Position numbers and translations under genes: made by a program | In this document: positions 19,496 through 23,143 of the stretch, in pieces | Layout: every line of letters begins with the position of its first letter | Position numbering within the stretch: position 1 is the first letter of the stretch | The notes under the pieces: model-generated | What the model saw: the letters and a program-made list of their open reading frames with translations, nothing else | Told to the model about the DNA's origin: nothing | The model's database searches: none | From: Planctomycetales bacterium | GTDB taxonomy: Bacteria > Planctomycetota > Planctomycetia > Pirellulales > Pirellulaceae | Length of the DNA stretch: 33,029 nucleotides | Assembly: GCA_020426925.1 (NCBI GenBank) | Contig: JAGQPC010000301.1 | Coordinates: 1-33,029, forward strand | Reading direction: 5' to 3'

Positions 19496-20542
19496 TCAAT
19501 TCGCGATCGTGAATACGTCGCGTACGGTTTCTGCAGCGGTCTCCCACTTGTCGGCTGCCAGATTGAAGTCGACGGACATGGCTCGGATGGTGTGCGGAGT
19601 CGCAACTCGTGACGTCGCAGTGCCGGTCGTGTTGAGCGGAATCTGTGCACTTTCTCCTGCGGCTAACAGTTGCTCCGTTTCCGGCCGCAGCAGAAATTCG
19701 ATCAGCCGCTGACCGTTTTCGCTGTTGCGGGCACCCTTGATCAATGAGAGCGAGTTCGGAATGAACAGAGTGCCCAACTGGCTGTCCGCTTGATCTGGAT
19801 AAACGATTTCAACGGGGCGTGCCGCTGCGATTTCGACCATCGCGTCATCTGTATCGGTCAGGCCAAACGCAATTTCGCCCTTGGAGACAGCCAATGCGAC
19901 TTGTTTGTTGCCCGGATAGACCTTTGCGTTCTTGCTAATCTGCCGCAAGAACGCAGTGGCCTCTTCGCTGCCTAGCGTCGCAAAAAGGCATGCTGCGTGT
20001 GACGCCGTCGTGCCGAACAACGGCTTTGCAATTCCGACTTTTTGTTTCCACTTTGGATCGGTGAGATCAGAAATCGATCGTGGTAATTCGTCCGGCTTGA
20101 CGATGTCCTTGTTTACCAAAATCACACGAGCTCTCGCTGCGAACCCGAACCATTCGCGATCAGGGTCGCGGTACTGCTTCGGGTAGTACTTGGCTGTTGC
20201 CGGCGAACATGATTGCAGTACGCCTTCGGACTTAAGTCGTAGTGTGTTGAGGATTTCGTTGTTCCAAAATACATCGCAACGCGGCCGATTCCGTTCGGCA
20301 AGAATCAGATTCGTAAGCCCAACCGTTTTGTTGGCCTCGGTGTCAAATTTTGGTCGCACGGCAATCCCGGTTACTTCGGTGAATTCCGCAAAGGTCACTT
20401 CAGCAAATTCACGATCCAGCGCGGTGTAAACGACGACCTCATTCTTCTTGCAGCCGCCAGCGCAAAGCATCACTCCTGCGAGCAAGCAAAAGAGCGTTAT
20501 TCGCGAACGACCGGAATCTTGTTTGGGCATATGCATTCCCAT
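19496..20542 (-). CDS. Iron(III)-type ABC transporter solute-binding lipoprotein
   Basis: The 348-residue protein starts with a lipoprotein signal ending in AGGC (Cys31), so it should be lipid-anchored outside the cytoplasmic membrane. The mature part follows the ferric-binding (FbpA/AfuA-like) class 2 solute-binding fold: [47 protein letters not shown], then [14 protein letters not shown] and [15 protein letters not shown]. These proteins capture iron or similar small ligands and hand them to an inner-membrane permease and ATPase. Neither partner gene is in this window, so this is an orphan component. Three ATGs lie close together at the start (20542, 20536, 20530); GGGA before the third makes it equally possible. 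Ligand identity is inferred from family only. Confidence 0.88.
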
Positions 20543-21297: not shown

Positions 21298-21379
21298 ATA
21301 GAATTGGCGTCCTCAATAATTCCGCGAGTTGCACTACCTCGCTACTGTTTTAGATCTCAGCCTTAGGAGCTTCCCGTTT

Positions 21380-22015
21380 ATGAAGATGACTGCGATTCGT
21401 ACACTGTGTTTGCTTTTCCTCGTTGCCGGTTCGGCACTGGCCGACGACAGCAACAACGAGTGGATTTCCATGTTCAACGGCCGCGACCTCGATGGCTGGA
21501 AGGTCAACGAAAACAAAGACTCTGTCAAAGTTGACGATGGCATGCTTATCATCGACGGCCCACGAGCTCATGCGTTTTTCGCTGGCTCAACAGGTAACGC
21601 CGATTTCAAGGATTTTCATTTCCAAGCTCAGGTCAAAACAACGCAGGGTTCGAACTCAGGGATTTATTTCCACACGGAATATCAAGACTCGGGCTGGCCA
21701 TCAAAGGGTTACGAGTGTCAGGTCAACAACACGCACGGCGATCCCAAAAAAACTGGCGGCCTCTATGGGATCCAAGATAACTTCGAGGCTCCCGCCAAAG
21801 ACGGCGAGTGGTTTAACTACGACATCATTGTCAAAGGAAAACACATCGTCGTTCAGATTAACGGAAAGACAATTTCCGATTACACCGAACCTGAAGACGC
21901 GGAGCGAAACGGTGAATTCAAGAATCGCCTGGTGTCGTCTGGAACGTTCGCCATTCAAGCACACGATCCCAAAAGTGTCGTGTACTTTCGCAACATTCGA
22001 GTGAAAAAGCTCTAG
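21380..22015 (+). CDS. DUF1080 (3-keto-disaccharide hydrolase) secreted protein
   Basis: The 211-residue protein has a signal peptide (TLCLLFLVAGSALADD) and then one DUF1080 domain, a concanavalin-like beta-sandwich. Landmarks are WISMFNGRDLDGWKV at the start, SNSGIYFHTEYQDSGWPSKG in the middle with YECQVNN following, and a closing FRNIRVKKL. Planctomycetes encode many such proteins; some members hydrolyse 3-keto-glycosides, so a role in breaking down oxidised sugars outside the cytoplasm is reasonable. I chose the ATG at 21380 because AGGAG lies 10 nt before it and the signal peptide begins there; an upstream ATG at 21329 adds 17 non-signal residues. The neighbours (tdk, a membrane protein) are unrelated. 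Substrate is unknown. Confidence 0.9.
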   Translation: MKMTAIRTLCLLFLVAGSALADDSNNEWISMFNGRDLDGWKVNENKDSVKVDDGMLIIDGPRAHAFFAGSTGNADFKDFHFQAQVKTTQGSNSGIYFHTEYQDSGWPSKGYECQVNNTHGDPKKTGGLYGIQDNFEAPAKDGEWFNYDIIVKGKHIVVQINGKTISDYTEPEDAERNGEFKNRLVSSGTFAIQAHDPKSVVYFRNIRVKKL

Positions 22016-22032: not shown

Positions 22033-22183
22033 GCGAGAGATGGCTAATAACCAAGCATCTTGGATTTCGGGTAGCTCGTAGTGGATCTTGCTAAAGATCC
22101 CGTCCGCCAGGAAGTTTAGCAACTTCCACTACCCGAACTAAGCTGACACAGACTACTAGCCGAGTGTTTATGCCGTCTCTCGC
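22033..22183. repeat. Nested inverted-repeat element with two inner hairpins
   Basis: Three layers of symmetry fill the gap between convergent genes. Outer arms: 22033-22044 with 22172-22183 (12 bp, one G-U pair). Middle arms: TTCGGGTAG (22066-22074) with CTACCCGAA (22129-22137). Inside these are two separate 7-bp hairpins: GGATCTT/AAGATCC (22083-22100, loop GCTA) and GGAAGTT/AACTTCC (22110-22127, loop TAGC). The two loops are each other's reverse complement. A second GTAGT at 22078-22082 could also pair with ACTAC at 22128-22132, so alternative folds exist. No coding frame or T-run explains it. It may be an intergenic mobile repeat or a bidirectional transcript end. Confidence 0.75.
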
Positions 22184-22192
22184 GCGAGTGCA

Positions 22193-23143
22193 CTATTTGG
22201 GAACGCGAGGTCGTTGGCGAGGGCCTCGCTCCAAAAGTTCATTGACAGAGCATTCGCCGCTGATCACGTCGTCGATTTCGTCCCATTCGAATCCACACGC
22301 TGACAACTCGGACACGTCGCATTCGGAAGGCTTGTCATCAAATAGCCCAATCGCTCGGTCTTCATTGACAGTCCGTTCGAACTCGTCGATACCGATCGAA
22401 TGCTGAGACCGCACCCAGGCAAGCAGATGGCTTAGCAAGTGGAAATTGGCAATTGTCCGAATCGGCAAATGCAGCCAGTGCGTTGATTCGTGGCTGTAAC
22501 CGATTCGCACTCCATCTTCTTCATCCAAGAACACGTCGTTGATTTCGTACCAACTGATCCCTTTCGAGCCGACCTTGATTCCTTCACGGCTGACTGAAAG
22601 TTTCTTTCCAAAACGCAGCCAATGCCCCGCTTCGTATGCGTGTTGATATGAGCCGAGCATTCGGTGAGTGATTTCGTTTTGAATACGTCGAGCAATCGCG
22701 ACCGAACCTTCAAAGCGGTCTAGTTTCAATCGACGTTCATCGTTCGACTCGATGCGAACCGTCCAACCTTGCGGCTTGTGATTGTTTGGTTTGTCAGAAT
22801 AGACGGGAGTTTGCCAGACGTTGCATATGTCTTCCCAGTGAAAAACGTCCGACGAAACGATGTCAATGTACTCTACGCCAAACTGGTGAAGATGAACTTG
22901 CCGAGTCTGTCTGACCCACAGCCTAATGGTGCTTAATGCAGCAGCTGCTAGGACGACAATCGAACTTCCCAGAAACAGGCGGCTTGCATCAGGCTGCAAC
23001 AGAGCGTGGTAGAGCGACCAGGCGCCGACAGCAGTTGTTGCACTCAAAAGCCACAGCAGCTTTCGGTACTTTCTAGATTCGGGAAAGTACGTTGCGACAC
23101 GTTTTCCCAGTGAGTTTGATGACGCGTCTCTCGTCGAAGACAT
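22193..23143 (-). CDS. Two-segment membrane protein of unknown function, possibly DUF6585-like
   Basis: The 316-residue protein has a basic N-terminus and two membrane segments, at about residues 28-48 (LLWLLSATTAVGAWSLYHALL) and 55-74. A soluble region of about 240 residues follows. The soluble part has two similar halves, each with a strand pair and a W-x-E-I/D-I element: FHWEDICNVW near 100 and ISWYEINDVF near 200. This PH-like, duplicated pattern reminds me of the DUF6585 group, but I cannot confirm it. The C-terminus is acidic, with a short basic end. The hairpin topology suggests both ends are cytoplasmic. It is alone on its strand with a structured element after its stop. Coding status is firm; function is unknown. 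Confidence 0.8.
   Translation of the reverse strand: MSSTRDASSNSLGKRVATYFPESRKYRKLLWLLSATTAVGAWSLYHALLQPDASRLFLGSSIVVLAAAALSTIRLWVRQTRQVHLHQFGVEYIDIVSSDVFHWEDICNVWQTPVYSDKPNNHKPQGWTVRIESNDERRLKLDRFEGSVAIARRIQNEITHRMLGSYQHAYEAGHWLRFGKKLSVSREGIKVGSKGISWYEINDVFLDEEDGVRIGYSHESTHWLHLPIRTIANFHLLSHLLAWVRSQHSIGIDEFERTVNEDRAIGLFDDKPSECDVSELSACGFEWDEIDDVISGECSVNELLERGPRQRPRVPK

Follow-up and report, generated by a model that had tools for sequence, protein, structure and literature searches.

A probable REPIN/IS630-MITE chimera in a convergent gap of a Pirellulaceae genome

The closest described counterparts of the repeat analysed here are GTAG REPs and REPINs with their RAYTs (PMC3733652, PMC3116915, PMC2817692). 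Shared features are a GTAG tag, a 7-bp stem, alternative complementary stem types, arrangement as inverted pairs, hundreds of copies, placement in convergent or codirectional gaps, and RAYT genes alongside. Rhodopirellula baltica has already been listed as a species with multiple REP families and numerous tyrosine transposases (PMC3733652). A second likeness is to IS630-type MITEs of the Tc1/mariner superfamily (ISY100, PMC2170065), which also have IS630-like terminal repeats of 29-36 nt and CTAG edges, are noncoding, and occupy many unrelated sites. The CTA...TAG edges found here agree with the insertion of IS630-family elements at TA, which they duplicate (PMC2170065); a preference for CTAG is named, as far as a title tells, by Tenzen and Ohtsubo 1991, cited in PMC2170065. 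Fusion of REP units to other repeats in hundreds of copies is known from Pseudomonas, where degenerate GTAG-1 units and unrelated stem-loops form inverted repeats (PMC3733652), and, in the available text of PMC1525189, insertion sequences enter REPs, so that an IS and a REP share one site.

The locus departs from each of these. The copy in the window (the whole 33,029-nt stretch of DNA analysed, contig JAGQPC010000301.1) differs from GTAG REPs and REPINs in lying inside the terminal repeats of another transposon class, and its cognate RAYT was not found in its own 82.7%-complete genome. Unlike IS630-type MITEs, its interior is a REPIN and not an IS remnant, and TA duplication is here only putative. 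The Pseudomonas GTAG-1 repeats adjoin RAYT-like genes, and their description is not that of IS630 ends around a REPIN (PMC3733652). The available text of PMC1525189 places the IS inside the REP, whereas here the REPIN lies inside a miniature IS and the whole unit is amplified. REPINs and IS630 MITEs are each already known, and a search of the openly accessible literature found no description of a chimera of the two.

The nested inverted repeats of the original prediction are all present at 22033-22183, in a convergent gap between a hydrolase gene that ends at 22015 (+) and a DUF6585 gene that ends at 22193 (-). The outer arms are 12 bp (11/12 complementary), the middle arms 9 bp (9/9), and the inner hairpins (22083-22100 and 22110-22127) have 7-bp stems with the loops GCTA and TAGC. 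A 23-nt inverted repeat, 83% complementary, takes in both inner hairpins, which are inverted copies, as the predicted duplicated and inverted unit implied. Folding energies of the region on its two strands are -60.8 and -64.6 kcal/mol, whereas shuffled sequences average -38.0 and -41.5 (z = -5.9 and -6.0); 0/200 shuffles were as stable. The arms of the predicted triple nesting are real, but they do not form a single element with the outer arms, as only about 22044-22159 is repeated elsewhere. The nested repeats are three layers, each with a different origin, and not a single unit (Table 1). The feature is very probably a non-autonomous chimera in which a REPIN sits in an IS630-type MITE that was inserted in the loop of a host hairpin. 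A further 23-nt inverted repeat in the window (78%, 9-nt gap, 19913-19967) lies within a solute-binding protein gene and is probably due to chance.

Table 1. Features of the element and its neighbouring genes (window coordinates)
Feature	Coordinates	Strand	Basis or remark
3-keto-disaccharide hydrolase gene (PF06439)	21329..22015	+	upstream of element
Left arm of probable outer host hairpin, outside repeat	22033..22044	+	no repeat match reaches into arm; 1/600 random positions
Complete chimera (116 bp) edged by CTA...TAG; probable IS630-type MITE enclosing REPIN	22044..22159	.	blastn copies and sharp edges
Degenerate right-type terminal repeat (IRR), inward from left edge, CTAATAACC in place of CTAGTAGTC	22044..22077	+	consensus alignment
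TA, left edge, possible target duplication in CTAG	22045..22046	.	sequence; T and A 83-98% in both half-element sets
Middle arm, left: IRR inner end (TTCGGGTAG)	22066..22074	+	arm mapping and consensus alignment
REPIN, inverted pair of GTAG-tagged hairpins, 9-nt spacer 22101-22109	22078..22132	.	half-unit counts; armless pairs exist too
REP 1, GTAG-T-GGATCTT-GCTA-AAGATCC, TC stem type	22078..22100	+	identical 23-mer beside RAYT genes, L095/L131 and L132
REP 2, GTAG-T-GGAAGTT-GCTA-AACTTCC, AG stem type, compensated	22110..22132	-	motif counts, stem covariation
Middle arm, right: REP 2 tag and IRL inner end (CTACCCGAA)	22129..22137	+	arm mapping and consensus alignment
Left-type terminal repeat (IRL), CTAGTAGTCTGTGTCAGCTTAGTTCGG inward from right edge	22133..22159	-	arm consensus vs L341 IS630 IRL
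TA, right edge, possible target duplication in CTAG	22157..22158	.	sequence; T and A 83-98% in both half-element sets
Right arm of probable outer host hairpin	22172..22183	+	flanks joined at CTAG give 12-pair stem, 15-nt loop, z = -2.0
DUF6585 protein gene	22193..23143	-	downstream, convergent

The innermost layer, judged by its anatomy, is a GTAG-type REPIN. Each hairpin reads GTAG-T-7 bp-4 nt-7 bp, in keeping with GTAG REPs, whose tag precedes by 0-2 nt a short-looped stem of at least 7 bp, and in the host genome the motif GTAGTGGANNTTGCTAAANNTCC occurs, at 3 mismatches or fewer, as 152 and 146 half-units (~298), against 2 and 4 for a reversed-pattern control. Most half-units are arranged as inverted pairs. 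Plain pairs that lack the arms are also present, many of them with spacers of 9 to ~160 nt and unrelated flanks. By ORF-based gene calls, none of 45 mapped REP pairs lies inside an ORF, where random positions would place ~34; their gaps are convergent in 21 cases, codirectional in 23, and divergent in 1. With hundreds of copies, the anticipated small intergenic mobile repeat is thereby upheld.

The stems covary. Four stem pairs were left free in the search, and at these (pairs 4 to 7) Watson-Crick pairing across all loci is 97, 77, 75, and 98%, against expectations of 37, 36, 59, and 44%. Mispairings mostly belong to a single class, in which the tandem G-A/A-G pair is regular. Compensated changes distinguish two stem types, TC/GA and AG/CT, and occur both within the genome and between genera, so the suggested search for copies and covariation gave a positive answer on each count. 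A REP class with the sequence GTAGTGGACGAGGCNACGAGTCC (L138, G013:C1:1145512-1149063), very common and present in several genera, has a stem in which a regular tandem G-A/A-G mismatch replaces Watson-Crick pairs.

Related genomes share the hairpin, and there it adjoins transposase genes. In two other genera of the family, represented by G010 (an uncultured Pirellula) and G013, the identical 23-mer flanks a RAYT gene of 189-192 aa on both sides (L095, L132); G013 also holds two RAYT paralogs (L138, L140) with GTAG hairpin arrays of their own. The RAYT proteins of these relatives carry DH-x-H (HuH) and YIARNPER (Y) motifs, and they match NCBIfam REP_Tyr_transpos at 5e-9 to 2e-10, below the NCBIfam cut-off. 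The AlphaFold2 model (pLDDT 92) has the Y1 fold, and its best PDB match is 4er8, the E. coli RAYT with bound REP hairpin. The clade also scores under the Pfam cut-off (PF01797) and was discovered through the hairpin cluster in G010; PF01797, when used to look for the cognate RAYT, picked up other Y1 genes of the host genome and of relatives, none flanked by this repeat. Perfect GTAG hairpins number 95 in the 49 kb within ~500 bp of 51 RAYT genes and 1 in 120 kb farther off, with one nearby at 20/51 loci and none at 31/51. The RAYT genes are flanked by plain REPs without IS630-type arms. Among 149 genomes of the family, at least 10 REPs are present in 29/37 with this RAYT and in 13/112 without it (p = 6e-14, shared descent uncorrected). 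Relatives of the RAYT at 42-47% identity, mostly from Verrucomicrobia (L230-L252), for the most part have no perfect GTAG hairpins within 500 bp.

The host genome is one of those 13 REP-rich genomes without RAYT. No RAYT of this clade was found in its assembly, which is 82.7% complete in 1273 contigs, some of them ending in the repeat, and five other Y1 genes of the genome have no repeat copy within 1.5 kb. The same genome contains a 152-aa Y1 transposase gene between genes that, by eye, resemble those for NADH-quinone oxidoreductase subunits (one NuoH-like, one NuoI-like; L061, G000:C55:14511-17855). It is flanked by a different repeat, translating as GVSLRSTCSTLG / RVEQVERSETPRNPG, which constitutes another REP-like family with its own transposase.

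The second layer consists of the arms around the REPIN. By blastn, the host genome contains ~39 other near-full copies of the element at distinct sites, and ~45 chimera copies, the window copy included, measure 116-121 bp and have conserved arms with the edges CTAGTAGTC/GACTACTAG. These have no coding capacity and lie at many unrelated sites. The edges are sharp: in sets of 48 and 43 half-elements, the 12 nt outside are random, while the CTA...TAG edge bases are conserved at 73-98% per base. The right-arm consensus agrees with the IRL of an element in G113 (L341), a genome from a related genus, at 27/33 positions, against 21/33 for the best of 100,000 shuffles. That element is 1242 bp long and its frames resemble IS630 transposase (4e-21 and 2e-23), although the frame is apparently broken. 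A plasmid search also gave a match to an IS630 transposase region of Methylobacter; the transposases of Methylobacter and G113 are 60-67% identical. IRL and IRR are distinguishable, and the chimera has both. No empty site was found for the chimera, and none of the 45 mapped pairs interrupts an ORF from which a target duplication could be read; the TA duplication is therefore putative. The left end of the window copy is degenerate (CTAATAACC), so IS630 can probably no longer mobilise that copy.

Arms without a REPIN were not found in the host genome, except at contig ends. A joined-arm query for REPIN-free MITEs there returned matches that covered single arms only, and regions with possible unpaired arms contained no IS630 transposase. 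Arms and REPIN may move only as one unit.

The chimera extends across the family. In six genera (g1, g37, g70, g62, g61, and g69), the REPIN starts ~29 nt from one end of the element and 36-37 nt from the other; in the window copy, the junctions lie 27 and 34 nt from the ends. This architecture is constant in the host genus and five others while the REP stems differ. Chimeras in G164 and G160 have the ends CTAGTGGTCTG, which match the ends of the 1242-bp element of G113, and G164 holds five near-identical copies, arms included, at unrelated sites with unrelated flanks. In G164 and G160 the chimera carries the REP found beside the genome's own RAYT, and in G137 it does so with one difference; in G150 and G134 the two REPs differ. 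Other interiors, non-REP or very short, are likewise found between such ends: 88 bp (G160), ~142 bp (G163), and 165 bp (G170). Variants include MITEs of ~142-158 bp in G163 (L312, L327, L333), which have same-type ends and other internal hairpins without the GTAG tag, and 397-bp chimeras in G113 (L342, L343), represented by several near-identical copies whose REPIN part contains additional inverted repeats. In one G160 chimera (L354, G160:C1:1313800-1314200), a REP is duplicated in tandem together with part of the arm next to it, which may represent an intermediate stage in the growth of the element.

The outermost layer appears to belong to the host. By blastn against the host genome, the outer 12-bp arms lie at or beyond the repeat edges and are unrepeated. 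A match of 11/12 at this geometry is found at 1/600 random positions, and joining the flanks at CTAG yields a 12-pair stem with a 15-nt loop (z = -2.0). Since the outer arms are non-repeated, fold once the flanks are joined, and are rare by chance, the chimera was probably inserted into the loop of an older hairpin, which the arms would have formed before insertion.

A plain long REPIN or BIME would account for the arms as an outward extension copied along by RAYT, with IS630 uninvolved. This reading agrees with a core that is a REPIN, with edges that start with GTAG (CTA-GTAG-TC), and with the constant company of arms and REPIN in the host genome, contig ends aside. It is nevertheless unlikely, given that the arms match IS630 terminal repeats at 27/33 positions, that a distinguishable IRL and IRR are both there, that REPINs without arms exist and plain REPs are what flanks RAYT genes, and that same-type ends enclose other interiors as well. 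Movement of the entire 116-bp unit by RAYT was the first idea in this analysis and was dropped once the arms matched IS630 ends.

Explanations that dispense with transposition fare worse. An accumulation by chance, or a transcription terminator selected to serve both convergent genes, accords with the convergent gap, and the outer 12-bp hairpin is improbable by chance; hundreds of copies elsewhere, and the absence of both a U-tract and a terminator-like site, make this very improbable. The bidirectional terminator once proposed is thus abandoned for the element, although a terminator reading may still hold for the outer, non-repeated hairpin alone, as a host transcript end. A structured RNA that functions through kissing loops would be consistent with a stable fold on each strand and with the compensated stems. 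The compensation, however, is also compatible with a hairpin that a transposase reads as DNA, the hairpin adjoins transposase genes, and there is no Rfam match above the gathering score. The loops, whose complementarity had suggested kissing, are complementary because the two hairpins are inverted copies sharing the loop GCTA, so that this observation carries no weight. The RNA reading has no specific support, the hairpins being accounted for as DNA structures that RAYT recognises, and is the least probable.

The REPIN/IS630-MITE chimera would work as follows. The two inverted hairpins of the core are of the kind bound as single-stranded DNA by RAYT, a HuH, IS200-like transposase. This REPIN would have been placed between the IRL and IRR of an element of the IS630/Tc1-mariner type that lost its transposase gene, and an IS630 transposase acting in trans would be expected to move the resulting 116-121-bp unit into TA within CTAG. 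The inner REPIN might also be recognised by RAYT, for which GTAG-TGGATCTTGCTAAAGATCC single strands are the predicted substrate. A broader and more doubtful proposal is that a single ancestral MITE of the IS630 type took up a REPIN at fixed positions (~29 and 36 nt from the ends) and spread in at least six Pirellulaceae genera, its REP stems changing with the RAYT of each lineage. Two unrelated transposition systems would then be in lasting partnership, the ends of the element being readable by a DDE transposase and its middle by a HuH transposase.

The spread of REPINs is attributed to their RAYT, and their persistence and dispersal are debated. A REPIN inside an IS630 miniature transposon would offer a second, RAYT-independent dispersal route. 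This IS630 route may explain genomes with many REPs but no detected RAYT, the host genome included. The constant junctions and changing stems of the chimera also allow one to ask whether REP sequences track their RAYT over time.
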